Below are positions 40,333 through 62,559 of a stretch of 64,000 bases of DNA, one piece after another. The notes beneath the pieces are model-generated. The model saw only the letters and a list, made by a program, of their open reading frames with translations. It was not told the origin of the DNA and did no database searches. The first letter of the stretch is position 1. Each line of letters opens with the position of its first letter. The position numbers and the translations under genes are program-made. Where the stretch lies: positions 62,001 to 126,000 of the forward strand of contig NZ_JAFLWW010000001.1 in NCBI RefSeq assembly GCF_018555685.1. The letters are read 5' to 3'. Origin of the DNA: Aminobacter anthyllidis (lineage in GTDB: Bacteria; Pseudomonadota; Alphaproteobacteria; Rhizobiales; Rhizobiaceae).

Positions 40333-40335
40333 GTG

Positions 40336-41874: not shown

Positions 41875-42845
<971 letters not shown>

Positions 42846-42855
42846 CGTCATCCAT

Positions 42856-42884: not shown

Positions 42885-42896
42885 GCGGCAATTGGA

Positions 42897-45301: not shown

Positions 45302-45611
45302 CAGATTTGTTCCTCTTCCCCAAAGTTTCCCCCCGCTCCAACTCAGCTGCCGCAATTCTGGATCGCGAGATGTGCTGAGCCTTTGCAGGCAAAAAGGTGT
45401 TTCAAAGGGAGGGCAGCAGGCAGGCGGCCGCACGCTTTCCCGAGGCTGTGGCGTCAGCTCACAACCTTCGTTCAAGATAGAGACCGCAAGCAACAGCTGC
45501 TCCTCCGCAGTGTTGTCCAATCGGCCAAGCTTGGCCCAACCAGCATTCCGGTAAATGGAAAACTCGTCATCCAGGTGTGACGGGTGGGAATACCAATCGT
45601 ATAGCGATTAC
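45302..45611. other. Regulatory region upstream of the orphan binding-protein gene (310 bp)
   Basis: No gene is supported here, although the frame of the binding protein stays open for part of it. It contains a perfect 14-bp palindrome, GGCCAAGCTTGGCC, at 45523-45536, and LysR-like dyads at its far edge: ATAC-N5-GTAT at 45590-45602 and CGTATA-N9-TATACG at 45598-45618, the latter reaching into the end of the LysR gene. CTTTG and CAAAG flank a 16-base loop at 45378-45403. Confidence 0.45.
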
Positions 45612-46547
45612 TTATACGTCATGGCGCGCGAGGTCGGCGGCTGTGCGGCGCAGCGTCTCCACCAGCACCTCGGCTGCCGGCGACAGGCGGGCATTCGTCC
45701 GGGTGGTGATGCCCATTGGCATGGCGGTAGCGCGCAACGTCACCGGCAATATCACGATGGCGCCGGCGGCGGCCTCGCGGCGCGCGACCTGGGCGGGGAA
45801 CACGCCGAGATAGTCGGCGTCGATCAACAGCGCCCTGTTGGTCAGCAGCGAAACGGAATCCACCGCATGCGACGGCGGTTCGAGGCCTTCCTCGCGAAAG
45901 GCGATGTCGATCTGTCGGCGCAGGCTGGTTTCCTGCGGCGGCAGGATCCATTCCCAGCCGATCAGGTCGGCGAGGTTGAGCTCGCTGCGCTCGGCCAGCG
46001 GATGGCCGCGGCGCGCGACGACGCAGGCGATGTCGTCCATTAGCACCTCCTGCACGACATTCAGCCGGTCGCGCTGCTCGGACAGGCGCCCCACCACCAT
46101 GTCGAGCTCACCGGCACGTAATGCCGGGATCAGCACGTCGTTGGTGCCCTCGACGATCTTGACCACGAGCTTGGGCCGCTCCTTGCGCAGGCGGGCGATG
46201 GCGGTCGGCAGCAATTCGGCCGAGGCCGAAAGCAGCGTGCCGATAGCGACACGGCCGCCGGTGCCGTCGCGCAGGTCGGCGAGATGTTCCTCGGCATGGG
46301 CGAGCTGGGTGATGACGAGACGGGCGTGCTCGGCCAGCGTGTCGCCGAACATCGTCGGCACCACGCCGCGATTGGTGCGGTCGAACAGCCTCGCCTTGGT
46401 CAGCGCCTCGATTTCCTGCAGCGCCTTGGTCACCGCCGACTGGGTCATGTTCAGGCGCTTGGCGGCGCGCACCAGATTGCCCTCTTCGACGATCGCCACG
46501 ACCATGCGCAAATGGCGGATGGTGAGACGGCTGGTGACGAGTTTCAT
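45612..46547 (-). CDS. LysR-family transcriptional regulator (first of two)
   Basis: This 311-residue regulator has an N-terminal winged helix (RLTIRHLRMVVAIVEEGNLVRAAKRLNMTQSAVTKALQEIEALTKARLFDRTNRGVVPT) and a LysR substrate-binding domain with RVAIGTLLSASAELLPTAI. The domain resembles the GbpR/PcaQ group, which respond to sugars or aromatic acids. It is divergent from the flavin monooxygenase gene with a T-N11-A type dyad between them, so it probably activates the monooxygenase-HOD-hydrolase operon in response to the substrate or an intermediate. Confidence 0.88.
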   Translation of the reverse strand: MKLVTSRLTIRHLRMVVAIVEEGNLVRAAKRLNMTQSAVTKALQEIEALTKARLFDRTNRGVVPTMFGDTLAEHARLVITQLAHAEEHLADLRDGTGGRVAIGTLLSASAELLPTAIARLRKERPKLVVKIVEGTNDVLIPALRAGELDMVVGRLSEQRDRLNVVQEVLMDDIACVVARRGHPLAERSELNLADLIGWEWILPPQETSLRRQIDIAFREEGLEPPSHAVDSVSLLTNRALLIDADYLGVFPAQVARREAAAGAIVILPVTLRATAMPMGITTRTNARLSPAAEVLVETLRRTAADLARHDV

Positions 46548-46584
46548 CGGAGCCTTGCCTTCAAGTCGTTGCGTCAGAGTTGAT

Positions 46585-46605
46585 ATTCCAAATCCTCATA
46601 GGAAT
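46585..46605. promoter_or_regulatory. LysR-type dyad between regulator and monooxygenase genes
   Basis: ATTCC at 46585-46589 and GGAAT at 46601-46605 are reverse complements separated by exactly 11 bases, the T-N11-A arrangement of LysR recognition sites. The dyad lies 38 bases before the LysR start and about 170 bases upstream of the divergent monooxygenase gene. A second, partial element (GAATTTCC then GAGAATTC) follows directly. Confidence 0.5.
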
Positions 46606-46776
46606 TTCCAGAGAATTCACTTGTCTGAATGTCCAATCGCTGGAAACTTGCCATGAGGAGGCGTTGGCGGCGCGAGGCGTTGCCAGTGCGCGGAGGTATT
46701 TCGGCTTGAGGTCGCCCGTTGCGGCCCGGGCCCCAGACGTCGGCAGGATTTGCCGCACGGGGAGGACAATCCAGAC

Positions 46777-47934
46777 ATGACCGAGAAAACCGGAGCCGGG
46801 CGCCACGCGGAGATCGCAGGCGCTGGAATTGGCGGCCTGACCACGGCCGCAGCATTGGCCCAGCGCGGCTGGTCGGTGACCGTGCATGAGCGGGCACCGA
46901 ACCTGCGTACCTTCGGCGCCGGCATCTACATCTGGAGCAACGGCCTGCGCGTGCTGAAGGCGATCGGCGCCTATGAGCAGGCCATTGTCGGCGCCCATAT
47001 CGGGCCGCAGTTCCATACCCGCGACCACGACAACACCACGATGGAGGAAATCCCCATCAACGGTCAGGGCGACGCCAGGCTGATCACCATCCTGCGCGAG
47101 CAACTGATCAATTCGCTGGTCGACACCTGCCGCCGCAGCGGCGTCGAGATCATGACCAATTCGGAAGCGGTGGGCGCGACATCAGAGGGCGAGCTGCTGC
47201 TCGCCGACGGCACGCGACGCAAGGCCGACCTCGTTGTCGGCGCCGACGGCATCAATTCCAAGGTGCGCGACTCGCTCGACCTGATGATGTACCGCAAGCA
47301 TCTCGGCTATGGCGCGATCCGCATGCTGATTTCGCGCGACGACGCCGACGTGCCGACAGCAGATCGCGACCGCTACATCGAATATTTCACCGGCACCCGC
47401 CGTATCCTCTACACTCCGGCCAGCGCGACCGACCTCTATGTCGCGCTGTGCTGTGCCGCCGACGACACCGACGCGCTGAAGGTTCCGGCCGACCGGGCGC
47501 TGTGGACCGAGTCTTTCCCGCATCTCGCCCATCTTGTCTCGCGTTTCGGCGACGCCGGGCGCTGGGATGCCTTCGAGGTGGTCAAGCTCAAGAAGTGGAG
47601 CAAGGGCCGCACGGCGATTCTCGGCGATGCAGCCCATGCCATGCCGCCTTATCTCGGGCAGGGCGGCGGCTGCGCGCTGATGAACGGCCTTGGGCTCGCC
47701 GCTGCCGTGGCCGATGCGGTCGACATCGAGCAGGCGCTGGTCGCCTGGGAAGAGCGCGAACGGCCGATCACCGAGCACACCCAGGACACGGCCGAACGTC
47801 TCGGCGACATGAATCTCTGGCCCGACGACGTCCGCTCGCAGGTGATGAAGATCACCGGCAAGAGCCGCGAGATCGGCGCCGAGCGCATGAAGACTGCGCG
47901 TCATGCGCCGACCGCCACCGAGCCGCTCGCGTGA
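46777..47934 (+). CDS. FAD-dependent monooxygenase, MHPCO/AqdB-like
   Basis: This class A flavoprotein monooxygenase is 385 residues from the ATG at 46777, downstream of GGGGAGGA. It has the Rossmann GxGxxG (AEIAGAGIGGLTTAAALAQRGW), the DG motif (VVGADGINSKVR) and the GD motif (AILGDAAHAMPPYLGQGGGCALMNG). The segment RTFGAGIYIWSNGLRVL closely recalls 2-methyl-3-hydroxypyridine-5-carboxylate oxygenase of Mesorhizobium, a ring-opening enzyme. With a HOD-type dioxygenase next, an alternative role is 3-hydroxylation of a 4-quinolone, as by AqdB/Moq. The reaction is not settled. Confidence 0.85.
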   Translation: MTEKTGAGRHAEIAGAGIGGLTTAAALAQRGWSVTVHERAPNLRTFGAGIYIWSNGLRVLKAIGAYEQAIVGAHIGPQFHTRDHDNTTMEEIPINGQGDARLITILREQLINSLVDTCRRSGVEIMTNSEAVGATSEGELLLADGTRRKADLVVGADGINSKVRDSLDLMMYRKHLGYGAIRMLISRDDADVPTADRDRYIEYFTGTRRILYTPASATDLYVALCCAADDTDALKVPADRALWTESFPHLAHLVSRFGDAGRWDAFEVVKLKKWSKGRTAILGDAAHAMPPYLGQGGGCALMNGLGLAAAVADAVDIEQALVAWEERERPITEHTQDTAERLGDMNLWPDDVRSQVMKITGKSREIGAERMKTARHAPTATEPLA

Positions 47935-47980
47935 CCAGTGAACATCGGGCGCGAAGCGCCCCAGATTTCGGAGACTTCAG

Positions 47981-48769
47981 ATGAAATCCATCCAGATCGG
48001 CGCCAACACGCTTTCTTATGACGAGACCGGCGAGGGCGAGGTGCTGCTGCTTCTGTCGGGCTGGTGCCAGGACCACCGCCTGTTCAAGACGCTGGCGCCC
48101 GAGCTCGCCAAGACCCATCGCGTCATCCGTCTGGACTGGCGCGGCCATGGCGAGTATCGCGAGCATGACGGCGACTTCGCCACCGACGACCAGGCGTCCG
48201 ATGTCGTCGCTTTCCTCGACAAGATGAACATCGACAAGGTTGTGCCGGTCTCGACCTCGCATGGCGGCTGGGCCAACATCGAGGTGACCGACCGGCTGGG
48301 CACGGCGCGCATCCCGCGCTCGGTTGTGATCGACTGGATCCAGACGACGCCGAACGAAGATTTCTTCCGCATGATCGACCACATCCAGGATCGCACCAAC
48401 TGGGAGAACGGCCGCGGCGACTTCTTCAATTACTGGATCGGCGACACCGAAAACCAGGACATCGTCAATCACGTCAACAGCGAGATGGCTCAGTACAGCT
48501 TCGAGATGTGGGCGCGTTCGGGCCGCGAGATCGGCAAGGCCTACCGCAAGTGGGGCAACCCGATGCAGCGCATGGCGGCGCTGACCGAAAAGCGTCCGAT
48601 CACCCACATCTATTCGCAGCCCTTCGAGCCCGAATACGCCCAGGCTCAGCTCGATTTTGCCGCCGGAAACGCCTGGTATAAGCCCAACAAGCTGCCTGGC
48701 AGGACGCACTTCCCGACGCTCGAGCAGCCCAAGGTGGTGGCCGACACCATCCGCGCCTTCGTCGCCTGA
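47981..48769 (+). CDS. Cofactor-less quinolone 2,4-dioxygenase (HOD/QDO/AqdC type)
   Basis: This alpha/beta-hydrolase-fold protein has 262 residues. Family members cleave 3-hydroxy-4(1H)-quinolones to N-acylanthranilates and CO without metal or cofactor. From memory of Arthrobacter HOD, its triad Ser101-Asp126-His251 maps here to Ser93 (TSHGGW), Asp118 (VVIDWIQ) and His243 (RTHFP), each with a constant offset of eight, and active-site Trp160 maps to Trp152. GWCQDHRLFK, DWRGHG, WARSGREI and THIYSQPFEPEY are also matched. HOD has a second His in its WCHDH motif where this protein has Gln30. The substrate ring is probably a 4-quinolone. Confidence 0.82.
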   Translation: MKSIQIGANTLSYDETGEGEVLLLLSGWCQDHRLFKTLAPELAKTHRVIRLDWRGHGEYREHDGDFATDDQASDVVAFLDKMNIDKVVPVSTSHGGWANIEVTDRLGTARIPRSVVIDWIQTTPNEDFFRMIDHIQDRTNWENGRGDFFNYWIGDTENQDIVNHVNSEMAQYSFEMWARSGREIGKAYRKWGNPMQRMAALTEKRPITHIYSQPFEPEYAQAQLDFAAGNAWYKPNKLPGRTHFPTLEQPKVVADTIRAFVA

Positions 48770-48780
48770 ACCGGAGTCTG

Positions 48781-49656
48781 ATGCGCATGAGCGTGCTTGC
48801 CGAAGAAGCCAACTGGCCGCGCGAAGTCCTCGACCGCGACTATGGCGCGCGGGCTTCCGTGACGCCTGAGGTCTTCGAGGCTGCAATGCGTGATTATCGA
48901 AGCCGCTCCGAGGAGATGCGGAGCCACGCCACGCATGTCGATGTCGTTTATGACGAGCCGAGCGGCCAGACGATCGATATCTATGGCACGGGTGCTACGC
49001 CGCGGCCGGTCTTCGTCTTCATTCATGGCGGCTATTGGCGGATGCTGTCCAAGCAAGATTCCGCCTTCATGGCGGCGATGCTGGCCAAGCAGGGCATTGC
49101 AACCGCTGTCGTCGACTACAGACTGGCTCCCGAGGTCAGCCTTGACGAGATCGTACGCGAAGTGCGCGCCGCCATCGGCTTCCTGTGGAGGACTGGCAAG
49201 GACTACGGCATCGACCCCGATCGCATCCATGTCGGCGGCAGTTCCGCAGGTGGTCACCTCACCGGGGCCGTCCTGAGCAGTGGCTGGCATGAGGGCGAGG
49301 GCGTGCCGGAAGACGTCATCAAGGGCGCGCTGCCGATCAGCGGCCTGTTCCACCTCGCGCCGATTGCAAACTCGTTCGTGCAGGACTGGATCAAGCTGGA
49401 TGCGGCAGCCGCGGAGCGGCTGAGCCCGGCCGCAAACATTGCCAGGGTTGGTTGCCCGATAGTCGTAGCCTATGCCGATGGCGAACCCGACGGGTTCAGG
49501 CGGCAATCGACGGAGTATGACCGGCTCTGGCGCGAGGCCGGCTTTGCCTCGGAGTTGATGCAAATTCCCGGCCGCAACCATTTCGACGTTCTGCTCGACC
49601 TAGCCACCGAGGACACGGTCCTGTCGAAGGCTCTGGTCCGACTGATCAAGGGCTGA
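48781..49656 (+). CDS. Arylformamidase-like alpha/beta hydrolase
   Basis: This 291-residue cytoplasmic hydrolase belongs to the kynurenine formamidase/carboxylesterase group. It has the oxyanion motif HGGYW at residues 82-86, the nucleophile Ser155 in GGSSAGGH, and the His in GRNHFDVL. The ATG at 48781 follows GGAG. N-formylanthranilate or another N-acylanthranilate is the direct product of HOD-type enzymes, so this gene, 11 bases after the dioxygenase gene, is well placed to release the free amino acid. This matches the role of AqdA or Amq in quinolone degradation. The substrate is inferred from context. Confidence 0.78.
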   Translation: MRMSVLAEEANWPREVLDRDYGARASVTPEVFEAAMRDYRSRSEEMRSHATHVDVVYDEPSGQTIDIYGTGATPRPVFVFIHGGYWRMLSKQDSAFMAAMLAKQGIATAVVDYRLAPEVSLDEIVREVRAAIGFLWRTGKDYGIDPDRIHVGGSSAGGHLTGAVLSSGWHEGEGVPEDVIKGALPISGLFHLAPIANSFVQDWIKLDAAAAERLSPAANIARVGCPIVVAYADGEPDGFRRQSTEYDRLWREAGFASELMQIPGRNHFDVLLDLATEDTVLSKALVRLIKG

Positions 49657-49659
49657 ACG

Positions 49660-50571
49660 TCAAGCCGTTTCGCGCGGCGTCAGCTGCTGCGCGTAGCGGC
49701 GCACGACGGCGGCGAAGGCAGAGACTGCCGGCGAGACCGAGCGGCCGGTGGCGTGGATCAGTGACACTTCGCGCGATATTGTCGGCTCGGCCAGTGGCTT
49801 GCCGGCGACTTTCCTGAAGCGCGCCGCCGCCAGCGCATAGGTGGGCAGCACGGCGATGCCGAGGCCTGCCTCGACAAGGGCGATCGCCGTCGTCACCTGC
49901 GTCACCTCAAAGACCGGCTTGAACGGGATCTGCGCCATCTCGAAGCCGACTTCGACAAGCAGCCGGATGCCGCTGTCTCGGGTCAGCGTGATCAGCGGCT
50001 GTTCCGCCAGACCAGCCCATTTGACTGTGTCCGCACCGTAAAACGAGCTCCGGTGGTCGCAGAACAGCATCAGGCTGTCACGCACCAGAGATAGCCGCTC
50101 GATGCCGTCCTCGGCCGGCGAGAAGGTGCCGAGGCCGCAATCGGCCTGGCCGCTGCGCACGCTTTCAACGATCTGCTCGGTGCCGACGTCGGCGAGCTGC
50201 ACCGATATCCCCGGATAGCTCCTCTGGAACTCGGCGATGGCCTGCGGCAGCACGACCGAGGCGAGCAGCGGCGGGGCGGCGATGCGCAGGCGTCCGCGTC
50301 GGCGTTCGGCCAGCATGTGCACGCCTTCGACGGCATGCTCCAGCTCTTCGATCACCTTGGTTGCGGAGTTCTGAAACTCGCGTCCAGCATCGGTCAGTTC
50401 GACCCGGCGCGTGGTGCGGTCGAACAGGCGCACCGACAATTCCGCTTCGAGATCACGGATTGCCTGCGACAGCGCCGGCTGCGCGGTTCCAAGCCGCTTC
50501 GAGGCGCGCGAAAAGCTGCCGAGCTCGGCGACCGCCAGGAACTGCTGGATCTGCTTGATCGTGATCTTCAC
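49660..50571 (-). CDS. LysR-family transcriptional regulator (second of two)
   Basis: This LysR protein has 303 residues from the GTG at 50571, six bases after GGAG. The winged helix is IKQIQQFLAVAELGSFSRASKRLGTAQPALSQAIRDLEAELSVRLFDRTTRRVELT and the effector domain begins RLRIAAPPLLASVVLPQAIAEF. It is unrelated beyond family to the first LysR gene. It is divergent from the aldehyde dehydrogenase gene with a perfect palindrome between, and it splits the plus-strand catabolic genes into an upper (46.8-49.7 kb) and a lower (50.8-60.2 kb) operon, which suggests separate inducers. Confidence 0.88.
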   Translation of the reverse strand: MKITIKQIQQFLAVAELGSFSRASKRLGTAQPALSQAIRDLEAELSVRLFDRTTRRVELTDAGREFQNSATKVIEELEHAVEGVHMLAERRRGRLRIAAPPLLASVVLPQAIAEFQRSYPGISVQLADVGTEQIVESVRSGQADCGLGTFSPAEDGIERLSLVRDSLMLFCDHRSSFYGADTVKWAGLAEQPLITLTRDSGIRLLVEVGFEMAQIPFKPVFEVTQVTTAIALVEAGLGIAVLPTYALAAARFRKVAGKPLAEPTISREVSLIHATGRSVSPAVSAFAAVVRRYAQQLTPRETA

Positions 50572-50645
50572 GGCGGTCTCCGTGGCGCAGGCCCCGAACG
50601 GCACAGCTTTTCGTTGGATGCTGACTTATACAGAAAACAGTCTTA

Positions 50646-50660
50646 ATTTATCAGATAAAT
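50646..50660. promoter_or_regulatory. 15-bp palindrome, candidate LysR operator of the lower operon
   Basis: ATTTATC-A-GATAAAT is a perfect odd-centred palindrome in an AT-rich island between the second LysR gene and the aldehyde dehydrogenase gene. It lies 75 bases before the LysR start and 105 bases before the dehydrogenase ATG. Its position suits a shared operator for divergent promoters. Confidence 0.55.
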
Positions 50661-50764
50661 CCATCTTGTCGATATATTGGTTTCCGTCGATGTTGTGCCC
50701 ACGACGACACGGGCTGCTGCCCGCACTGTCGAATTTGATGCCAATTGCGAAGCCGAGGCGACCG

Positions 50765-52198
50765 ATGTCCAACTACCCCGATCTCCAGCTTTATATCGGC
50801 GGCGCCTGGCGGCGGACGGCGGAAACGCTGCCTGTCATCAACCCGGCCGACGAGAGCGTGATCGGCGCGGTTCCGGTGGCATCCACCCACGACCTCGATG
50901 CGGCTCTCGAAGCTGCCGAACGCGGCTTTGCCGTCTGGCGCAAGACCTCGCCCGCCCGCCGCGCCGAGGTGCTGCGCAAGGCAGCGGCGCTTCTGCGCGA
51001 GCGCATCGACGAGATCGCCAGGGACATCACCCGCGAACACGGCAAGCCGTTCCAGCAGGCGCGCCTCGAAGTGATCCGCGGTGCCGAGTTCTTCGAATGG
51101 GATGCCGGCGAAGCGCAGCGGACCTATGGCCGCGTCATCCCGAGCGAGCCTGGCATCCGCTACATCGTCCATCACCAGCCGATCGGCACGGTGGCGGCGT
51201 TTTCGCCGTGGAACTTCCCGATGAGCCAGCCGGCACGCAAGATCGCCGGTGCGCTGGCCGCCGGATGTTCGATCATCATCAAGGCCGCCGAAGAGACGCC
51301 GGCAGGCTGCCTCCACATCGCCCGTGCGTTCCATGATGCCGGTCTTCCGGCTGGCGTGCTCAACCTCGTTTTCGGCATCCCTTCGCAGATTTCGGAGTAT
51401 CTCATCCCGCAGGAGCAGGTGCGCCTGATCGCCTTCACCGGTTCGACGGCGGTCGGCAGGACGCTCACCGGCCTCGCTTCCCACTATGTGAAGCCGACGC
51501 TTATGGAACTTGGCGGCCACGCTCCGGTCATCGTCTGCGACGACGCCGATCCGGTTAAGGCCGGCATCGCCTCGGCCATCCGCAAGGTGCGCAATTCCGG
51601 CCAGGTCTGCACCTCGCCGACCCGCTTCTTCGTCCACGAGAAGGTCTACAAGTCGTTCACTGAGGCCTTCATCGAGCGTGCCCGCGCCGTGAAGGTCGGC
51701 AACGGCCTGGAAGAAGGTATCGAGATGGGGCCGGTGGCCAACCATCGACGCGTCGAGGCAATGGAAATGCTGGTCGCGGATGCCGTCTCGAAGGGCGCCA
51801 AGCTCCTGCTCGGCGGCGAACGCCCGCGCAACAGCGGCTACTTCTATCCGCCGACGATCCTCGCCGATCTGCCTGACAATGCCCGCGTCATGCGCGAGGA
51901 GCCGTTCGGCCCGCTGGCGGTGATCAATCCCGTTTCCTCGCTTGAAGAGGCGATCGAGAAGGCGAATGGCGTGCCCTTCGGCCTTGCCGCCTACGCCTTC
52001 ACCAACTCGGCCGCCAATGTCGACCAGATCACCGATGACCTGGAAGCCGGCAACGTCTCGATCAACACGCTTGAGGCATCGGTTGCCGAGACGCCGTTCG
52101 GCGGCGTCAAGGAGAGCGGTTTCGGTCGCGAGGGCGGTGTCGAAGGCATCCTGCACTACATGGTGGCCAAGAACGTCTCGCACCGCATGGCGATCTAA
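50765..52198 (+). CDS. NAD(P)-dependent aldehyde dehydrogenase
   Basis: This ALDH-superfamily enzyme has 477 residues from the ATG at 50765, six bases after GAGG. The active site has the Asn in SPWNFPMSQ, the catalytic Glu in LMELGGHAP and the Cys in RNSGQVCTSPTRFFV; FTGSTAVGRTL binds the cofactor. It most resembles the succinate-semialdehyde dehydrogenase/GabD branch. In this operon it could oxidise the ring-cleavage semialdehyde or a C3 semialdehyde released by the next enzyme. It is the first gene of the lower operon. Confidence 0.88.
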   Translation: MSNYPDLQLYIGGAWRRTAETLPVINPADESVIGAVPVASTHDLDAALEAAERGFAVWRKTSPARRAEVLRKAAALLRERIDEIARDITREHGKPFQQARLEVIRGAEFFEWDAGEAQRTYGRVIPSEPGIRYIVHHQPIGTVAAFSPWNFPMSQPARKIAGALAAGCSIIIKAAEETPAGCLHIARAFHDAGLPAGVLNLVFGIPSQISEYLIPQEQVRLIAFTGSTAVGRTLTGLASHYVKPTLMELGGHAPVIVCDDADPVKAGIASAIRKVRNSGQVCTSPTRFFVHEKVYKSFTEAFIERARAVKVGNGLEEGIEMGPVANHRRVEAMEMLVADAVSKGAKLLLGGERPRNSGYFYPPTILADLPDNARVMREEPFGPLAVINPVSSLEEAIEKANGVPFGLAAYAFTNSAANVDQITDDLEAGNVSINTLEASVAETPFGGVKESGFGREGGVEGILHYMVAKNVSHRMAI

Positions 52199-52243
52199 CC
52201 GAAGCTCGCAAACGCCGACTGGCCCCTCGGAAAAGGCAATTCG

Positions 52244-53203
52244 ATGAAATACGACAAGAAGACCGCCAAGGCCCATTCGAGGGCGACGATGAAGGGCATC
52301 TGGGCCGCCGGCCTGATGCCGTTCAAAGATGATCTGTCGATCGACGAAGACGGCTTCCGCAGCAACATTGACCACTGGATCGGCGACCTCGGCATCGACG
52401 GCTTCTTTATCGCCGGCAAGCAGGGCGAGTTCTTCTCGATGTCGCTGGACGAGCGCAAGCGCAGCTTCGACCTGGCGGTCGACGCCTGCGCCGGCCGCGC
52501 CCAGACCATCATGTCCTGCTCGGACCAGAACATGGACGTGGTCATCGACCTCGCCAAGCATGCCCAGAAATGCGGCGCCGACTATATCGTCGTGCACGCG
52601 CCGATCCTGCACTTCTTCAAGCAGCAGGACGAGACGCTTCTCAACTACTACCGCACCATCGCCGACAAGGTCGACATCGGCATCGCGCTCTGGAGCCATC
52701 CCGACAGCGGCTACCTGATGAGCCCCGAGCTGTGCAACAAGCTCGCCGACATCGAAAATGTCGTCGCCATCAAATACTCGGTGCCGCGCCCGATGTACAA
52801 GGAGCTGACGGCGCTCGCGGGCGACCGCATCCTCGTCAGCACGGCCTCGGAAGAGGAGTGGCTGGACAACATCCTCGAGCTCAACTGGCAGCTCTATCTG
52901 TGCTCGTCGCCGCCCTATCTGATCCAGACCAAATACGATCGCCGCATGCGCGAATACACCGACCTTACCTTATCAGGCAAAGCCGAGGAAGCCCGCCGCA
53001 TTCGCGACAGCCTCGATCCGGTGCGCGCCGCGCTCAAGGACACGCGACCGGCCGAGAAGCCGCATTCGCACCAGAAGTACTGGCAGGAGCTGCTGGGGCA
53101 GGCGGGTGGACGGGTGCGCCCGCCGCTGCTGGAACTCACCGAGGCGGAGAAGCGCGCCACCCGTGCGGCTTTCGAGGCCTGCGGCCTGAAAACCACCGCC
53201 TGA
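52244..53203 (+). CDS. DHDPS/NAL-superfamily lyase, candidate hydratase-aldolase
   Basis: This 319-residue class I aldolase-type protein has the Schiff-base Lys177 in VVAIKYSVP and a GKQGEF motif (residues 58-63) in place of the GTTGE loop. The canonical catalytic Tyr of DHDPS (in PYY) is absent; the position reads HAPILHF. The superfamily includes NahE/PhdJ hydratase-aldolases, which hydrate and then retro-aldol-cleave unsaturated 2-oxo acids from aromatic ring fission. Its place between an aldehyde dehydrogenase gene and a ring-cleaving dioxygenase gene suggests such a role on the 3-hydroxyanthranilate ring-fission product. This is inference. Confidence 0.8.
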   Translation: MKYDKKTAKAHSRATMKGIWAAGLMPFKDDLSIDEDGFRSNIDHWIGDLGIDGFFIAGKQGEFFSMSLDERKRSFDLAVDACAGRAQTIMSCSDQNMDVVIDLAKHAQKCGADYIVVHAPILHFFKQQDETLLNYYRTIADKVDIGIALWSHPDSGYLMSPELCNKLADIENVVAIKYSVPRPMYKELTALAGDRILVSTASEEEWLDNILELNWQLYLCSSPPYLIQTKYDRRMREYTDLTLSGKAEEARRIRDSLDPVRAALKDTRPAEKPHSHQKYWQELLGQAGGRVRPPLLELTEAEKRATRAAFEACGLKTTA

Positions 53204-53794
<591 letters not shown>

Positions 53795-53798
53795 GCGC

Positions 53799-54761
53799 AT
53801 GAAGGCAATCAGGCGACATATCGAGGGAATCGGCATCGAACTGGAGCAGCTTCTGGCTGGTCCCGTCGTGGTGACCTGCATTCCCGACATGGCCAATGTC
53901 GCCTGGCCGGCGAGGGCGATCTTCGCGGGGCTTTCCCGCGCGGACCTTGAAGCTGCTTTCAGGCGTTCGCCTGCAGGCACCGTCGATCCCGAGGGCGAGA
54001 CGGTCGCGCTCAGCTTCAACTGCTACGTCATTGAGACACCCGACTATGTTGCGCTGATCGACGGCGGCATTGGCGACGGCAAGGAGCGGCCGCATCGGCC
54101 GGCCTGGCATCGCCGCGAGACGAAGTTCCTCGACACGCTCGCCGCGATCGGCATTTCGCCCGAGCGCGTCGACATCGTCATCAACACGCATCTGCACGCC
54201 GATCATGTCGGCTGGAACACAAGGCGGGAAGGCGAGACCTGGCGGCCGACCTTTCCCAATGCGCGCTACGTCGTCGCCGAAACCGAGCTTGCCCACTGGA
54301 CCAACGTCCACGAGGCTTCGGTCGACGGCAACACGCTGCATGGTGCCTTCGCGGACAGCGTGTTGCCCATTATCCGGTCCGTCGGCTTCGATGCGGTGGC
54401 ATCGGATGCCGAGATCGCGCCGGGGCTGCGGCTGAAGCCGGCGCCGGGGCACTCGCCCGGCATGGTGGTCGTTGCGCTCGACACCGGCGAGGGCGAGGTG
54501 CTGTTCCTGGCCGACGCGGTTCATCATCCGCTGCAGCTCGGCGACGACGCCATCGTCTGCAACTTCTGCGAAGACCCGATCCTCGCGCGTTCGACGCGGA
54601 TCGGCCTGCTCGGTGCGGCAGCAGCCAGGGGCACCGTGCTCGCGCCCTACCATTTTCCCGCCCCTGTCTTCGGCCGGCTGACGGCAGAGGCGGCCTCGTT
54701 CCGGTTCGTGCCTCTCCAGATCGATGCACCCGGCCAGCCGGCACCTAACAATGCGCGCTGA
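53799..54761 (+). CDS. Metallo-beta-lactamase-fold hydrolase
   Basis: This 320-residue hydrolase starts four bases after the dioxygenase stop with no obvious ribosome site, suggesting coupling. The two-metal motif is VINTHLHADHVGWN, followed by GHSPGM and, later, LADAVHH, giving the usual His and Asp ligands. An N-terminal extension of about 70 residues precedes the MBL core, which begins NCYVIETPDYVALIDGG. Related enzymes open lactones or hydrolyse esters and amides; 4-pyridoxolactonase is a catabolic example of the fold. Here it may act on a lactone, lactam or enamine intermediate of the pathway. The substrate is unknown. Confidence 0.82.
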   Translation: MKAIRRHIEGIGIELEQLLAGPVVVTCIPDMANVAWPARAIFAGLSRADLEAAFRRSPAGTVDPEGETVALSFNCYVIETPDYVALIDGGIGDGKERPHRPAWHRRETKFLDTLAAIGISPERVDIVINTHLHADHVGWNTRREGETWRPTFPNARYVVAETELAHWTNVHEASVDGNTLHGAFADSVLPIIRSVGFDAVASDAEIAPGLRLKPAPGHSPGMVVVALDTGEGEVLFLADAVHHPLQLGDDAIVCNFCEDPILARSTRIGLLGAAAARGTVLAPYHFPAPVFGRLTAEAASFRFVPLQIDAPGQPAPNNAR

Positions 54762-54788
54762 AATGCGCCGACCAGAGGAGAACTGACG

Positions 54789-55952
54789 ATGAATTTGAGG
54801 AAAGCGTTTCTTGCCGCATCGGTCGCAGCACTTGCGACGTTTCCGGCGTTTGCCGCCGATCCGGTCAAGATCGGCATGATCACCACGCTGTCGGGCCCGG
54901 CCGGCTATCTCGGCCAGGACATCCGCGACGGCTTCATGCTGGCGATGGAAGACGGCAAGCTTGGCGGCGTGCCCGTCGAGCTTGTGGTCGAGGATGACGG
55001 CCTGAAGCCGGGGCAGGGCAAGCAGATTGCCGAGCGGTTCCTTGGCGAGGAAGGCATCAAGCTGTTTACCGGCATCGTCTTCTCCAATGTCGCCGGCGCA
55101 ACCGTTCCCGATATCGTCGACAACGACGCCTTCTATGTCAGCCCCAATGCCGCGCCCTCGAACATGGCCGGCAAGGAGTGCAACCAGAACTATTTCGTCG
55201 TTTCCTGGCAGAACGACTCCCTGCATGAAAGTGCCGGCCAGAACGCCACCAATCTCGGCTACAAGAAGGCCTTCGTGCTGGCCCCGAACTACCAGGCTGG
55301 CAAGGACGCCATCGCCGGCTTCAAGCGCTACTTCAAGGGCGAGATCGCGGGCGAAATCTACACCCGGCTTGACCAGACCGATTTCGCGGCGGAACTCGCC
55401 CAGGTCCGCGCCGCCAAGCCTGACGTTGTGTTCCAGTTCCATCCGGGCGGCCTCGGCATCACCTTCCTGCGCCAGTACGAGCAGGCCGGCCTGATGAAGG
55501 AAATCCCGATGGTGGTGGCCGAGCCGTCGATGGATGGCGTGACGCTCGCTGCCGTCGGCGACGCGGCCATCGGCCTCAACGTGACGAGCCATTGGAACTC
55601 CGACTTCGACAACGCCGCCAACAAGAAGTTCATGGAAGACTGGAACAAGGCCTACAACCGTCCCGTGACCTATTACGCCAGCCAGGGCTATGACGCAGCC
55701 CTTGCCTATGCCTCGGCGCTGAAGGCCACCAGCGGCAGCCTCGATGATGCCGATGCTTTCCGCGCAGCACTGCGCAAGGCTAATTTCGAATCCGTGCGCG
55801 GCAAGTTCGCCTTCGGCACCAACCAGCATCCGGTCCAGGATTGGTATGCGCTCAAGGTTGAGAAGGGCGAGGACGGCAAGCCCTTCCTGAAGACCGTTGG
55901 CGACATCCTCAAGGACCATGGCGACGCCTACGCGGCCGATTGCAAGATGTAG
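54789..55952 (+). CDS. Liv-type (HAAT) ABC substrate-binding protein of the catabolic operon
   Basis: This periplasmic binding protein has 387 residues with a signal peptide (MNLRKAFLAASVAALATFPAFA). The start has AGAGGAG upstream. The core reads KIGMITTLSGPAGYLGQDIRDGF and APNYQAGKDAIAGFKRYFKGE, nearly identical to the paralogue at 44126-45301. The family binds hydrophobic amino acids and aromatic acids. It is followed by two permease and two ATPase genes, so the importer is complete, and its place between the catabolic enzymes and the dehydrogenase indicates that it brings in the growth substrate. Confidence 0.92.
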   Translation: MNLRKAFLAASVAALATFPAFAADPVKIGMITTLSGPAGYLGQDIRDGFMLAMEDGKLGGVPVELVVEDDGLKPGQGKQIAERFLGEEGIKLFTGIVFSNVAGATVPDIVDNDAFYVSPNAAPSNMAGKECNQNYFVVSWQNDSLHESAGQNATNLGYKKAFVLAPNYQAGKDAIAGFKRYFKGEIAGEIYTRLDQTDFAAELAQVRAAKPDVVFQFHPGGLGITFLRQYEQAGLMKEIPMVVAEPSMDGVTLAAVGDAAIGLNVTSHWNSDFDNAANKKFMEDWNKAYNRPVTYYASQGYDAALAYASALKATSGSLDDADAFRAALRKANFESVRGKFAFGTNQHPVQDWYALKVEKGEDGKPFLKTVGDILKDHGDAYAADCKM

Positions 55953-56029
55953 TTCGACCAGTTCGCTGTGGCGGGCGGCAACATTGCCGCTCGCTCCCCC
56001 TTTAGGTCTTCCAATCGAAGCGACAGGCG

Positions 56030-56944
56030 ATGACGCTCTTCCTCGAACAGATGCTCAATGGCGTGCAATTCGGCGTCATGCTTTTTCTGCTGGCAGCCGG
56101 CTTGACGCTGATCTTCGGCATCATGGGCGTCATCAACCTGGCGCATGGCTCGATCTACATGATCGGCGCCTATGCCGGCACGTGGGTCGCCGCGGAGACC
56201 GGCTCGTTCTGGCTCGGCATTCCCGCGGCGCTTGCGGCGGCCGCGATATCGGGCGTGGCGATCGAATTTCTCGTCGTGCGCAGGCTCTACCAGCGCGATC
56301 ATCTTGACCAGGTGCTCGCCACCTTCGGCCTGATCCTGATTTTCAACCAGACGATTACCATCCTGTTCGGACGCCAGCCGCTGTTCGTGTCGATGCCGGC
56401 CCTGCTTGACGGTTCGGTCGAATTGCTGCCGGGCCTGTTCTATCCGATCTACCGCCTCGCCATCATCGCCGTTGGCCTGCTGGTTGCCGTGGGGCTCTAT
56501 TTGCTCATCAACAAGACCCGTATCGGCATGCTGGTTCGCGCCGGCTCGACCAACCGCGAAATGGTGCGCGCGCTCGGCGTCGACATCCGGCTGCTCTACA
56601 CGCTGGTCTTCGGCCTCGGCGCGCTGCTCGCCGGTCTCGCCGGCTTCATGGCCGGCCCGATCCTCGCCGTGCAGGTCGGCATGGGCGAGCAGATACTGAT
56701 CACCACCTTCGTCGTCGTGGTCATAGGCGGCGTCGGCTCGATCCGCGGCGCGTTCTTCGCCAGCCTCATCCTCGGCATCGTCGATACCGGCCTGCGCGCC
56801 TACCTGCCAGGCCTGCTGCGCCAGGTCATGGTTGGCCCCGAGGCCGACGCGCTCGGCGCGGGCATCTCCTCGATGGGCATCTACCTTTTGATGGCGATCG
56901 TGCTTCTGATCCGGCCGAAAGGCCTCTTCATCCGAAATTCCTGA
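56030..56944 (+). CDS. Liv-type ABC permease (LivH-like)
   Basis: This inner-membrane permease has 304 residues and about eight membrane spans. The family segments are QMLNGVQFGVMLFLLAAGLTLIFGIMGVINLAHGS, typical of LivH, and VVVIGGVGSIRGAF near the C-terminus, which includes the cytoplasmic coupling region. The ATG is 77 bases after the binding-protein stop and has AGGCG upstream. It works with the second permease encoded immediately downstream. Confidence 0.93.
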   Translation: MTLFLEQMLNGVQFGVMLFLLAAGLTLIFGIMGVINLAHGSIYMIGAYAGTWVAAETGSFWLGIPAALAAAAISGVAIEFLVVRRLYQRDHLDQVLATFGLILIFNQTITILFGRQPLFVSMPALLDGSVELLPGLFYPIYRLAIIAVGLLVAVGLYLLINKTRIGMLVRAGSTNREMVRALGVDIRLLYTLVFGLGALLAGLAGFMAGPILAVQVGMGEQILITTFVVVVIGGVGSIRGAFFASLILGIVDTGLRAYLPGLLRQVMVGPEADALGAGISSMGIYLLMAIVLLIRPKGLFIRNS

Positions 56945-56945
56945 G

Positions 56946-57947
56946 ATGGGCCCCGCTTCGCCAATGGAAACGTCACTCAAGCGACCCGCACTGCTCATCA
57001 GTGTGGTGATCGCACTCATCGCATTGCCGCTGATAGCCGACGCCACCGGCTACACCGCGCTGATGTCGCTCGCGACGCGCGTGCTGATCTACGGCATCGC
57101 TGCGGCCAGCCTCAACTTCGTGCTCGGCTATGGCGGCATGGTCAGCTTCGGCCACGCAGCCTTCTTCGGCATCGGTGGTTACGTCGTCGGCATACTCTAC
57201 CAGCACTATTCGCTGGGCGAGCCGCTGCTCGGCTTCATTCCCGGCACCAACCAGCTATTGATCACTGTGCCTGCGGCGATCGTGGTCAGCGGACTCATGG
57301 CTGCCGTCATCGGCGCGCTGTCGCTGCGCACCGGCGGCGTGCAGTTCATCATGATCACGCTCGCCTTCGCCCAGATGTTGTTCTTCCTGTTCGTGTCGCT
57401 GAAGACTTATGGCGGCGACGATGGCCTCATCATCCGCCGCGCCAACGAGCTGCCGGGTCTCAACATGCGCGACAAGCAGACGGTCTATTATGTCTGCCTG
57501 GCGATCACGGCGCTGTTTTTCGTCATCCTGTGGCGTATCGTCAATTCGCGCTTCGGCAACGTCATCGTCGGCCTGCGCCAGAGCGAAAAGCGAATGGCGG
57601 CCATCGGCCTGCCGGCCTACCGCTACAAGCTGATGGCCTTCGTCATCTCGGGCATGGGCTGCGGCCTTGCCGGCGCGCTGATGGCCAACTTCCTGCGTTT
57701 TGCCAGCCCCGACATGCTGCACTGGACCAAGTCGGGCGAACTGATGGTAATGGTCATTCTCGGCGGCGTCGGCACGCTGTTTGGGCCGCTCATCGGTGCT
57801 GCCGTGTTCATCGTGCTCGAAACGCTGCTTGCCTCGTGGACCGAGAACTGGCAGCTCGGCCTCGGCCTCATCCTGCTGTTCGTCGTGCTTTACACCCAGG
57901 GCGGCGTGCAGGCGCTGGGCGCACGTCTTTTTGGGAGGCGCGCATGA
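56946..57947 (+). CDS. Liv-type ABC permease (LivM-like)
   Basis: The second permease has 333 residues, or 327 if the in-frame ATG at 56964 is used. It carries the LivM motifs LNFVLGYGGMVSFGHAAFFGIGGY, IALSLRTGGVQF-like segments (ALSLRTGGVQFIMITLAFAQM) and MVMVILGGVGTLFGPLIGA. It starts one base after the LivH-like stop, and its stop overlaps the first ATPase gene by ATGA, so all four transporter genes are tightly coupled. Confidence 0.92.
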   Translation: MGPASPMETSLKRPALLISVVIALIALPLIADATGYTALMSLATRVLIYGIAAASLNFVLGYGGMVSFGHAAFFGIGGYVVGILYQHYSLGEPLLGFIPGTNQLLITVPAAIVVSGLMAAVIGALSLRTGGVQFIMITLAFAQMLFFLFVSLKTYGGDDGLIIRRANELPGLNMRDKQTVYYVCLAITALFFVILWRIVNSRFGNVIVGLRQSEKRMAAIGLPAYRYKLMAFVISGMGCGLAGALMANFLRFASPDMLHWTKSGELMVMVILGGVGTLFGPLIGAAVFIVLETLLASWTENWQLGLGLILLFVVLYTQGGVQALGARLFGRRA

Positions 57948-58702
57948 GCCAGCCGATCCTCAATGTCCGCGGTCTGGTCAAGCGCTTCGGCGGCCTGCTT
58001 GCCACAGACCATGTCGACATCACCGTCAATCCAGGCGAGATCCACGCCTTGATAGGCCCCAATGGCGCCGGCAAGACGACGCTGATCTCGCAGCTGATGG
58101 GCGAGCTCAAGCCCAACGAAGGCACCATCGAGATCGACGGCCGCACCGTGGACGGTATGCCGACCGCCAGGCGCGTATCGCTTGGCCTGGCGCGCACCTT
58201 CCAGATCACCTGCCTGCTGCCCGACTACACAGTGCGAGACAACGTCGCCATCGCCGTACAGATCCGGCAGGGCCACAGCTTCCGCTTCTGGGGCGACGTG
58301 CGCCGCGAGAATGCGCTCGCCGAAGAGGCTTCGACCTACCTCGGAACCGTCGGCCTCGATGGCCGCGCCGACGAGTTGGTCGCCAACCTCTCCCATGGCG
58401 AGCAGAAACAGCTGGAGCTTGCGGTGGCACTCGCGACCAAACCGCGGCTGCTGCTGCTCGACGAGCCGATGGCAGGCCTCGGCCATGTCGAGAGCCAGCA
58501 GATGATCGAGATCCTGAGCGGCCTCAGGAGCCAGGTCTCGATGCTGCTGGTCGAGCACGACATGGAGGCCGTGTTCGCGCTGGCCGACCGCATCTCGGTG
58601 CTGGTCTACGGGCGTGTCATCGCCACCGGCACGGTCGACGAGATCAGGGACAATCCGGAAGTGCGCACCGCCTATCTGGGCGAAGGAGACGAGCTATGCT
58701 GA
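57944..58702 (+). CDS. Liv-type ABC ATPase (LivG-like)
   Basis: This ATPase has 252 residues from the ATG at 57944. Walker A is GPNGAGKTTLISQL, then GLARTFQITCLLPDYTVRDNVAIA, the signature NLSHGEQKQLELAVAL, Walker B LLLLDEPMAGLG and the H-loop LLVEHDMEAV. The signature LSHGEQ is standard for LivG. A longer open frame in this phase begins inside the permease gene and is a shadow. It overlaps the last ATPase gene by seven bases. Confidence 0.94.
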   Translation: MSQPILNVRGLVKRFGGLLATDHVDITVNPGEIHALIGPNGAGKTTLISQLMGELKPNEGTIEIDGRTVDGMPTARRVSLGLARTFQITCLLPDYTVRDNVAIAVQIRQGHSFRFWGDVRRENALAEEASTYLGTVGLDGRADELVANLSHGEQKQLELAVALATKPRLLLLDEPMAGLGHVESQQMIEILSGLRSQVSMLLVEHDMEAVFALADRISVLVYGRVIATGTVDEIRDNPEVRTAYLGEGDELC

Positions 58703-59397
58703 GCGTCGCCAAACTGCAATCGGGCTATGGCCGCAGCCAGGTGCTCTTCGACGTCGAGCTGGAGATCGGCGAAGGCGAGGTCATCACGCTGCTCGGCCGC
58801 AACGGCATGGGCAAGACCACCACTGTCAAGTCGATCATGGGCCTGGTCAGGCCGATGGCGGGCGAGGTGCGCTTCAGCGGCCGTGATGTGTGCGGCGCCA
58901 CGCCAGAGACGGTCGCCCGCCTTGGCGTCGGGCTTGTGCCGGAGGGGCGGCAGGCCTTCGCCACGCTGACCGTGCGGGAGAACCTGGTCGCCACCGCCGC
59001 CAACCGCCTCAGCCGCAAGGACCCATGGACGCTGGAGCGCGTCTACGCGCTGTTTCCAAGGCTGAAAGAGCGTGCCGGGCAGGCCGCGGGCACGCTGTCC
59101 GGCGGCGAGCAGCAGATGCTGGTCGTCGGCCGGGCGTTGATGACCAACCCGAAACTGCTTATCCTCGACGAGGCGACGGAGGGCCTTGCCCCCGTCATCC
59201 GGGCCGAAATCTGGGGCTGCATCGAGGCGCTGAAGGTGGAAGGGCAGTCGATCCTGCTGATCGACAAGAACCTCAATGTGCTGAAGCGCCTCGCCGACCG
59301 CCACTACATCCTGGAAAAGGGCCACACCGTCTGGTCCGGCACCGGCGCGGACCTGACCAGCAACGCCGAACTGGTGCAGCGTTATGTCGGCCTCTGA
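58696..59397 (+). CDS. Liv-type ABC ATPase (LivF-like)
   Basis: The partner ATPase has 233 residues from the ATG at 58696, with AAGGAGAC upstream inside the previous gene. Walker A is GRNGMGKTTTVKSIMG, with GLVPEGRQAFATLTVRENL typical of LivF, the signature GTLSGGEQQMLVVGRAL, and Walker B LLILDEATEGLAPV. The H-loop position reads LLIDKNLNVLKRL, with Asn-free Lys in place of the usual His (QHN or EHD), a notable departure seen in some LivF proteins. It overlaps the dehydrogenase gene by 14 bases. Confidence 0.93.
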   Translation: MLSVAKLQSGYGRSQVLFDVELEIGEGEVITLLGRNGMGKTTTVKSIMGLVRPMAGEVRFSGRDVCGATPETVARLGVGLVPEGRQAFATLTVRENLVATAANRLSRKDPWTLERVYALFPRLKERAGQAAGTLSGGEQQMLVVGRALMTNPKLLILDEATEGLAPVIRAEIWGCIEALKVEGQSILLIDKNLNVLKRLADRHYILEKGHTVWSGTGADLTSNAELVQRYVGL

Positions 59398-60211
59398 CAA
59401 GCCTTCCAGGCGCCTGCGGCTCTGCTTCATCGGCTGGGGCGCGATTGCCAGCCGCGTCGGTGAGTTGCTTGCCGAGCGGCAGCCGGCGGGCGTGGCGATC
59501 GTCGCCGTTGCCGTGCGCGATGCCGGCCAGGTGCGCGCCAACCTTCCCGCTGGCGCGCAGCTGATCTCAAGCCCTGAGGAACTGGCCGGGCTCGACATCG
59601 ACATGGTGATCGAGGCGGCGGGCCGACCGGCCGTCGCGATATGGGGTGAGGCGGCCTTGCGTCACGCGCGCAGCTTCGCGGTGTCTTCGGCGAGTGCGTT
59701 TACCGACGAGTCGATGCTTGGCCTGCTTTTGTCGGTCGCCGAGGAGGCTGGAAGCCGCATCCTTGTCCCATCAGGCGCGCTCGGTGACCTCGGCGCGCTG
59801 GCCGCGGCCTCCGTGCTGCCGCTCGACCAGGTCAGGCATTCGATCGTCAAGCCGCCCCGCGCCTGGCGGGGCACGAAGGCAGCCGAGCTTGTCGACCTCG
59901 ACACGCTCACCGAAAGAACCGAGTTTTTCGCCGGCTCGGCGCGCGAGGCGGCAGCAAGCTTTCCGCAGAACGCCAATGTCGCTGTCATCACTGCGTTGTC
60001 CGGCATTGGACTCGACCGCACCCGCGTCGTGCTGGTCGCCGACCCCCATGTCAGCCGCAATGTTCACGAGATCAGCGCGTCCGGCGCATTCGGCAAGCTG
60101 GACCTGAGACTGGAAAACGAGGCGCTGAAGACCAATCCGAAATCGTCCGAGATGACGGCCCTCAGCCTCGTGCGCCTTATCGAAAGCAGCGTTGCAACGC
60201 TGGTCAGCTGA
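59384..60211 (+). CDS. nadX: Aspartate dehydrogenase-like protein (NadX family)
   Basis: This NAD(P)-dependent dehydrogenase has 275 residues. The N-terminal Rossmann motif is LCFIGWGAIASRVGELL, followed by VIEAAGRPAVAIWGEAAL, VPSGALGDLGAL, FPQNANVAVITALSGIGLDRT and DPHVSRNVHEI, all hallmarks of the L-aspartate dehydrogenase family. The enzymes interconvert aspartate and iminosuccinate. Its gene overlaps the last transporter ATPase gene by 14 bases, so it belongs to the catabolic operon. It could reduce or accept an iminosuccinate fragment from ring fission, or supply NadA; the direction of reaction is not evident. Confidence 0.85.
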   Translation: MSASDKPSRRLRLCFIGWGAIASRVGELLAERQPAGVAIVAVAVRDAGQVRANLPAGAQLISSPEELAGLDIDMVIEAAGRPAVAIWGEAALRHARSFAVSSASAFTDESMLGLLLSVAEEAGSRILVPSGALGDLGALAAASVLPLDQVRHSIVKPPRAWRGTKAAELVDLDTLTERTEFFAGSAREAAASFPQNANVAVITALSGIGLDRTRVVLVADPHVSRNVHEISASGAFGKLDLRLENEALKTNPKSSEMTALSLVRLIESSVATLVS

Positions 60212-61178: not shown

Positions 61179-61245
61179 CTGCTTGCCTCGATAGCCGCCG
61201 CATCTTGAGCGATTGGCCTGAGCCCCGCAACGTTGGATCGTCGCT

Positions 61246-61264
61246 ATCTTTATTCAAGATATGC
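61246..61264. promoter_or_regulatory. 19-bp motif shared by both AraC upstream regions (copy 1)
   Basis: ATCTTTATTCAAGATATGC lies 68 bases before the first AraC start, in the 240-base gap shared with the deaminase gene. It matches the copy at 63472-63490 at 16 of 19 positions and is set in otherwise dissimilar sequence. It also contains an internal ATCTT/AAGAT dyad. A common AraC binding site is the simplest explanation. Confidence 0.5.
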
Positions 61265-61421
61265 ATCGCGGCGCCGGCGATATTTCGTTTGATGCCTCGA
61301 TGCATGACACTCCTGCCATTGCGACGAGCGATGAGACGCAGCCTGCGATATGTGGCCAGAATGGTCCACCTGGCGTCCGCCCAATGCAAGTCGCGAGCTA
61401 CGTTGGCAGTGGAGAAGACCA

Positions 61422-62456: not shown

Positions 62457-62559
62457 GCGCGGCGTTCCAGCGTCGCCAGTACCGGCGCGCTCACAACCTG
62501 CTGCGTCAGCTGGGCTTGCCTTGTCGCGGGCCCGGCTGACGACGAAAAGTCCCCGCCGT

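Follow-up and report, generated by a model that had tools for sequence, protein, structure and literature searches.

The question raised by a gene cluster of Aminobacter anthyllidis (source genome of about 6.7 Mb) is which aromatic compound it serves to break down and by what route. The cluster spans positions 44126-60211 of a 64,000-nucleotide stretch of contig NZ_JAFLWW010000001.1 (positions 62,001 to 126,000; hereafter the window). An original prediction, made from the letters of this window, read it as a single route from a quinolone or hydroxyquinoline through 3-hydroxyanthranilate. Comparison of related loci instead divides it into two modules, an upper one of binding protein (SBP2), LysR regulator, flavin monooxygenase (FMO) and QDO-type dioxygenase, and a lower one of DHDPS-type lyase, 3-hydroxyanthranilate 3,4-dioxygenase (HAO), Liv importer, L-aspartate dehydrogenase homolog (AspDH) and aldehyde dehydrogenase (ALDH), with 3-hydroxyanthranilate as the likely junction. 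That the cluster is catabolic and works as proposed below, taking a quinolone to 3-hydroxyanthranilate and degrading the latter without the decarboxylase ACMSD, is considered slightly better than an even bet. The gene logic of this reading is strong; the chemistry, including which quinolone is used, whether ALDH or the lyase acts first and what the cleavage yields, is what we infer from it.

Gene content and proposed route

The genes of the cluster are as follows (+, forward strand; -, reverse strand).

44126..45520, -: SBP2, a second branched-chain-amino-acid-type (HAAT) binding protein, upper module; 65% identity to the SBP at 54789-55952
45612..46547, -: LysR1, a PcaQ-like regulator divergent from FMO and beside it in related loci; TF_pcaQ 215 bits, below the cut-off of 303.8
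46777..47934, +: FMO, a class A flavin monooxygenase, proposed quinolone 3-monooxygenase; FAD_binding_3, best PDB match MHPCO
47981..48769, +: QDO-type cofactor-free 2,4-dioxygenase; best PDB match 3ibt (QDO); S93, D118, W152 and H243 conserved
48781..49656, +: KFA, an arylformamidase-like alpha/beta hydrolase, proposed N-formyl(or N-acyl)-3-hydroxyanthranilate amidase; HGGYW and GSSAG kept in 39 or more of 42 distinct homologs
49660..50604, -: LysR2, a regulator accompanying the lower module (domain match and related loci)
about 50765..52198, +: ALDH of dicarboxylate-semialdehyde type; succinate-semialdehyde dehydrogenase 490 bits, alpha-ketoglutaric semialdehyde dehydrogenase 485 bits
52244..53203, +: DHDPS-superfamily lyase, proposed hydratase-aldolase (invariant K177, fold and co-occurrence)
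53249..53794, +: HAO; above both NCBIfam cut-offs, ligand positions invariant
53799..54761, +: MBL-fold hydrolase, AidB-like, accessory (domain matches)
54789..55952, +: SBP, the importer binding protein (domain match)
56030..56944, +: LivH-type permease (domain match)
56946..57947, +: LivM-type permease (domain match)
57944..58702, +: LivG-type ATPase (profile match)
58696..59397, +: LivF-type ATPase (profile match)
59384..60211, +: AspDH, overlapping LivF; above its cut-off, His228 present

All of these genes are open reading frames, and those listed in the original prediction were found where it had placed them, with family matches in agreement. Its start was set too late: LysR1 and SBP2 lie just outside it and both belong to the set, SBP2 being oriented divergently to FMO in most loci with QDO. 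The MBL-fold hydrolase, which it had counted as a member, was rejected as a core step because it is unseen in many related loci, among them the named Mesorhizobium, Nitratireductor and Brucella loci (at 38% identity or more over half of the query). The pairs LivM/LivG, LivG/LivF, LivF/AspDH and HAO/MBL overlap or nearly touch, which points to an operon-like arrangement.

In the proposed route, an 8-hydroxylated 4-quinolone (4,8-dihydroxyquinoline or a xanthurenate-like compound) would be imported by SBP2 with LivHMGF and hydroxylated at C3 by FMO; the QDO-type dioxygenase would then cleave the ring with loss of CO, and KFA would hydrolyse the resulting N-acyl(formyl)-3-hydroxyanthranilate to 3-hydroxyanthranilate. 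HAO would open the latter to 2-amino-3-carboxymuconate semialdehyde (ACMS), the aldehyde of which would be oxidised by ALDH (by an XDH-type molybdenum enzyme elsewhere), replacing the decarboxylation by ACMSD. The DHDPS-superfamily hydratase-aldolases NahE and PhdJ cleave unsaturated 2-oxo acids, and ACMS or its oxidised form would be a 3-substituted iminosuccinate in one tautomer and an unsaturated 2-imino acid in another. The lyase would accordingly be expected to form a Schiff base at K177, hydrate its substrate at C4 and cleave C3-C4 in a retro-aldol step to malonate semialdehyde and iminosuccinate (or oxaloacetate). Reduction of iminosuccinate to L-aspartate, the own reaction of the AspDH family, would retain the ring nitrogen in an amino acid. 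The mass balance of these steps closes: C7H7NO3 plus O2 gives C7H7NO5, oxidation gives C7H7NO6, and addition of H2O gives C3H4O3 plus C4H5NO4. Two variants may be envisaged, one in which ALDH acts after the lyase on malondialdehyde or malonate semialdehyde, and another in which transimination expels ammonia to yield oxaloacetate, re-aminated by AspDH.

The lower module

In tryptophan degradation the ring is cleaved at the stage of 3-hydroxyanthranilate, and the product ACMS stands at the fork between quinolinate/NAD and catabolism. HAO exceeds the cut-offs of two curated NCBIfam equivalogs (281 bits against 220, and 274 against 146), and R47, H51, E57, H95, R99 and four cysteines, which we take to be metal and substrate ligands, are invariant in 89/89 distinct homologs. 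Among 297 genomes of the family, HAO was detected in 28 and the lyase in 26, all 26 with HAO (Fisher 2.4e-35); as for the two HAO genomes lacking the lyase, G126 has ACMSD and the HAO of G065 is a 56% match with an internal stop. Class-wide, HAO is present in 36 of 385 genomes, own genome included. The union amounts to 63 HAO genomes, 47 of which carry the lyase, six ACMSD, none both and ten neither (p 1.2e-4), these p-values overstating independence, as the genomes are related and no kinship correction was applied. As judged by sequence matches, the lyase and ACMSD are mutually exclusive within this sample.

For this count ACMSD was accepted at 61% identity or more to the query (one of the six being the query's own genome), and 13 further genomes with relatives of only 25-35% identity were not scored as carrying it. 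The query itself scores 458 bits with solved ACMSD against 94 with the next family, which marks it as a true ACMSD; ACMSD candidates received no NCBIfam family, and their identity was decided by solved structures. No ACMSD ortholog was found in the A. anthyllidis genome, where the best match has 28% identity and 57 bits, and searching with alphaproteobacterial ACMSD gave nothing at E 1e-25.

Such exclusion is also expected if the lyase simply substitutes for ACMSD as a Schiff-base decarboxylase, with ALDH producing 2-aminomuconate and AspDH reducing that imine or assimilating nitrogen; the C3 carboxyl of ACMS, being beta to the imine carbon, would suit such a reaction. We regard this alternative as unlikely, though deserving of attention, since decarboxylation strips the second carboxylate that an AspDH-like substrate needs, and since the hydratase, 4-oxalocrotonate decarboxylase or aldolase genes seen in the ACMSD loci L049, L058 and L080 do not turn up with the module (L numbers denote loci and G numbers genomes).

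A kynureninase adjoins the lower module, with QDO absent, in L083, L084 and L088 (341 bits against a cut-off of 246 in L083, the other two copies being 92-93% identical to it), from which the entry compound of the module is most likely 3-hydroxyanthranilate; a single route, as originally envisaged, overlooks this separate use of the lower module. Relics of QDO, 22 codons of its C-terminus before KFA, persist at about 6.7 kb in L079 and about 15.8 kb in L089 with no QDO or FMO match left, so in these lineages the upper module was apparently lost while the lower one survived. A reading frame of 1010 amino acids in L079, suspected of hiding QDO or FMO, turned out to be FtsK-like (575 bits, below cut-off).

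The original prediction had listed ALDH, lyase and AspDH, all of which are present, and had missed that together they could form a lower pathway free of ACMSD. Thirty-seven lyase loci were fetched, the own-genome stretches L101 and L102 being left out. ALDH (at 55% identity or more) is found in 18 of them (cut by the stretch end in L093), an XDH-type subunit in 16, both in none, and ACMSD in none, while L079, L087 and L107 have neither oxidising enzyme, the latter two lying on short contigs. The XDH-family molybdenum enzyme (L071, L082, L089, L096, L097, L104, L108, L109, L112, L115, L117, L119, L121, L126, L129 and L137) adjoins the lyase or HAO in 15 of the 16 loci, and its L071 subunit matches best the alpha subunit of glyceraldehyde dehydrogenase, an aldehyde oxidiser (556 bits, below cut-off). 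That ALDH and the XDH-type enzyme never occur together suggests that both carry out the same aldehyde oxidation. The cluster ALDH shares 31-34% identity with its counterparts in four ACMSD loci, and its kinship to succinate- and alpha-ketoglutarate-semialdehyde dehydrogenases fits a putative dicarboxylate semialdehyde substrate. Separately, L073 has an XDH-family subunit beside HAO in a stretch lacking the lyase.

The lyase is a DHDPS/NAL TIM barrel (predicted structure, pLDDT 81) in which the Schiff-base residue K177 is invariant; it stays below the equivalog cut-offs of DapA, NanA and KdgD (best 87.6 bits against 206). AspDH scores 236.5 bits against 177 (PRK13303.1-3), seven other AspDH models remaining below their own cut-offs. 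Only aspartate dehydrogenase structures match it (one titled TM1643 hypothetical), H228 of its NxHEI motif is retained in 36 of 37 distinct homologs with one gap, and the divergent homologs of L071 and L081 match Asp_DH_C. By these matches AspDH is a member of the NadX family, for which reduction of iminosuccinate is predicted. It is present in 24 of the 37 lyase loci; three gaps are stretch ends (L090, L094 and L098), and the gene shows in L091, L025 and L036.

The genes nadC-nadB-nadA and a weakly NrtR-like gene lie at 39481-43841, just upstream of the cluster. Their proximity lends some colour to a very improbable alternative, in which quinolinate, formed by cyclisation of the HAO product, would supply NAD synthesis. 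The genome, however, has its own NadB/NadA route, and the module brings in an importer, ALDH, lyase and AspDH besides; moreover, among the fetched stretches nadA stands beside the cluster only in Aminobacter (L020 and L029, again with the NrtR-like gene). NAD synthesis as the purpose of the cluster was therefore rejected, nadB being present and importer and ALDH left unexplained. Elsewhere in these surroundings, AraC-type regulators flank an adenosine deaminase gene at window 60339-63429 and in L102, and a second pair of AraC and adenosine deaminase genes occurs farther along the same contig.

The upper module

The dioxygenase, predicted at the outset to be of HOD type, bears this out: it scores 271 bits with 3ibt, 225 bits with AqdC and HOD, and 33 bits with the next best match, an esterase. 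The catalytic residues of HOD are the dyad H251 and D126 and the nucleophile-elbow S101 (PMC10548524). Their equivalents H243, D118 and S93 are kept in 51, 50 and 51 of 51 distinct homologs (69 were collected and identical ones collapsed). Q30 and T92, assigned by counting along the 3ibt alignment, replace H38 and H100 of HOD as in 3ibt and are kept in 49/51 and 50/51. The enzyme thus belongs, on these residues, to the QDO subtype of the HOD/QDO family, and CO-releasing quinolone cleavage is predicted. HOD, AqdC and related enzymes are known to cleave PQS (PMC8961568, PMC5332414), which raises the alternative that FMO and the dioxygenase act on an alkylquinolone signal of HHQ/PQS type, their neighbours being incidental. 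The enzyme is nearer to QDO than to AqdC, KFA is arylformamidase-like while AqdA is a carboxylesterase type B, and the linkage to HAO is strong; we therefore give this alternative hardly any weight.

This linkage was assessed in 46 named loci obtained by one genome scan, neighbours being shown at 38% identity or more over half of the query; as the codon-usage gene caller misses or mis-calls some genes, counts were taken from tblastn. The close set (L018-L042, n=25, QDO at 68% identity or more) covers Aminobacter, Mesorhizobium, Nitratireductor, Brucella, Rhizobium sp. and unclassified relatives. The co-occurrence across genomes that had been suggested as a check was found here: FMO adjoins QDO in 25/25, KFA is present in 22/25 and HAO in 21/25, and the grouping of these genes is not accidental. 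Two of the four HAO misses are contig ends (L028 and L033), and in L026 and L031 HAO lies elsewhere in the genome, in the former with the whole lower module. Gene order varies between genera, which argues that the linkage is not mere inheritance of one block.

Within the family, QDO occurs in 12 of 297 genomes at E 1e-40, ten of them, counting the own genome, at 73% identity or more and two at 45-48%. In nine of the ten, HAO shares a contig with QDO and lies no more than about 6 kb away (Fisher 1.5e-9); the tenth, G252, is fragmented and 85% complete, and L033, a contig of 3.2 kb, looks like the same record. The other two (G176 and G178; L099 and L100) carry FMO beside QDO and their own Liv-type importer, with no HAO match in the genome. 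These pairs tie FMO to QDO, and L099 and L100 represent another quinolone cluster.

FMO scores 264 bits with MHPCO, 93 with the next structure and 72 with a probable salicylate monooxygenase, and reaches the cut-off of no NCBIfam model (best 25 of 70). A quinolone lacking the 8-hydroxyl could in principle also lead to 3-hydroxyanthranilate if QDO and KFA gave anthranilate and a flavin monooxygenase hydroxylated the latter, as in Geobacillus thermodenitrificans NG80-2. An FAD-dependent anthranilate hydroxylase yielding 3-hydroxyanthranilate is on record (PMC4539516), and Brevibacillus locus L048 has FMO together with an HsaA-like hydroxylase (264 bits, below the HsaA cut-off). The cluster contains a single hydroxylase, however, nearest to MHPCO and far from the salicylate enzyme, and the pairing of FMO with QDO even where HAO gave no match indicates that it serves QDO; FMO as the anthranilate hydroxylase is hence disfavoured, and this alternative seems to us rather improbable, somewhat more so than the decarboxylase. 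The hydrolysis that follows ring cleavage would fall to KFA, whose best PDB match is a lipase (98 bits; kynurenine formamidase 63 bits), whose domains are BD-FAE/Abhydrolase_3 (COesterase below cut-off) and whose HGGYW and GSSAG motifs are presumably of arylformamidase type.

The distant set (L043-L063, n=21) covers Bacilli, Actinobacteria, one member of the Comamonadaceae and a Serratia metagenome-assembled genome, and HAO is seen in 5/21 stretches. In L049, L055 and L058, HAO near QDO is accompanied by ACMSD, a RidA-like gene and ALDH, as in the classical route, the ACMSD of L058 scoring 427 bits with solved ACMSD. HAO was found in 24/24 genomes searched (those of the 21 distant loci and of L026, L031 and L042), and of the ten match loci retained from these genomes, six (L142-L147) have ACMSD beside it. 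Brevibacillus reuszeri (L048 and L151) has two HAO copies, one near QDO and the other belonging to an ACMSD-type pathway that includes a kynureninase-like gene.

Further genes accompany QDO in these distant loci. A cytochrome P450 at L055:7011-8201 (Streptomyces), near QDO, FMO, HAO and ACMSD, is a candidate quinolone hydroxylase. An HsaA-type two-component flavin hydroxylase lies near QDO in L050, L053, L057, L059 and L061, all lacking a good FMO match, and is possibly a replacement for the 3-monooxygenase there; the L050 copy scores 630 bits, above the HsaA cut-off of 450. An amidohydrolase (c12) is near QDO in 13 of the 21 loci (L045, L046, L048-L050, L055-L061 and L063), the L048 copy being nearest to atrazine chlorohydrolase and 8-oxoguanine deaminase; the A. 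anthyllidis genome holds only distant relatives of ACMSD or of this amidohydrolase.

Weighing the route and its significance

Several observations weigh against the proposed route, beside the relatedness of the genomes mentioned above. For the upper module, no gene for an 8-hydroxylase was found in the cluster, KFA occurs without QDO in 5/37 lyase loci, and the presence of HAO in 24/24 genomes is weak by itself because the background in the Brevibacillus order is already 23/39 genomes. For the lower module, ten of the 63 HAO genomes fit neither route, having neither lyase nor ACMSD, and four of the 47 lyase genomes have an ACMSD relative of 25-32% identity, excluded from the ACMSD count. The kynureninase loci, three in all, represent just two genera (g71 and g75), and the XDH-type gene of L104, with only 37% identity, sits some 6 kb away from the lyase. 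The lyase is 16-26% identical to solved relatives and has HAPILHF where they carry a Tyr-containing motif, and no named hydratase-aldolase is among its matches listed, an absence that rules nothing out. AspDH is missing from 13/37 lyase stretches, 8/14 class-wide lyase loci have none in view, and an AspDH-like gene (35% identity) is found about 10 kb from HAO in the ACMSD locus L111; AspDH may be replaceable or dispersed. All the evidence, finally, comes from sequence and comparison. The link drawn in the original prediction from an 8-hydroxy-4-quinolone to 3-hydroxyanthranilate is nonetheless well supported by comparison, the linkage of QDO, FMO and HAO having held, with 4,8-dihydroxyquinoline, xanthurenate or another 8-hydroxy-4-quinolone as candidate substrates; the formamidase-like gene, present as predicted, is not strictly tied to QDO.

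Among known systems, the 1H-4-oxoquinoline/quinaldine pathway shares with the cluster a flavin monooxygenase acting at C3, a cofactor-free 2,4-dioxygenase releasing CO, an amidase and common QDO-type residues; QDO of the 1H-4-oxoquinoline pathway is from P. putida 33/1. Arthrobacter Rue61a, with HOD, forms anthranilate, degrades it via CoA-thioesters and failed to grow on 3-hydroxyanthranilate (PMC3534580), whereas the cluster links HAO and a 3-hydroxyanthranilate module. The aqdABC genes of Rhodococcus and Mycobacteroides likewise combine a monooxygenase, an HOD-family dioxygenase and a hydrolase. AqdA is a carboxylesterase type B, as already weighed, and AqdR is TetR-type (PMC5332414), in contrast to the formamidase-like hydrolase, LysR regulators and 3-hydroxyanthranilate lower module found here. 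The classical 2-aminomuconate meta pathway of nba/kynurenine type (HAO, ACMSD, semialdehyde dehydrogenase, deaminase) has in common with the cluster the opening by HAO and an aldehyde dehydrogenase, but ACMSD and the subsequent genes are replaced by a DHDPS-type lyase and AspDH. The lyase, in turn, resembles NahE and PhdJ in its TIM barrel and Schiff-base lysine, yet is divergent, as noted, from the solved superfamily members among its matches listed.

A literature search, with most subscription papers outside its reach, yielded no description of the cluster or of the lower route in the texts covered, and 3-hydroxyanthranilate together with aspartate dehydrogenase occurred in only two papers there, both apparently off topic. 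A review of aromatic amine degradation covers the 3-hydroxyanthranilate meta pathway, the word aspartate being absent from the part available (PMC4539516). The proposed ACMSD-free lower pathway of ALDH, DHDPS-type lyase and AspDH is the more novel part of the cluster.

The chances are about equal for and against the broader proposal that alphaproteobacteria possess a widespread ACMSD-free route from 3-hydroxyanthranilate to malonate semialdehyde and L-aspartate, onto which a module opening 8-hydroxy-4-quinolones has been plugged. If true, 47 of the 63 sampled HAO-bearing alphaproteobacterial genomes would carry this second route, and many of these bacteria would bypass the textbook pathway. 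It would further provide a catabolic role for AspDH, an added function in the DHDPS superfamily and a reason why such bacteria carry QDO-type enzymes, and what becomes of quinolones and xanthurenate in soil could be put to the test.

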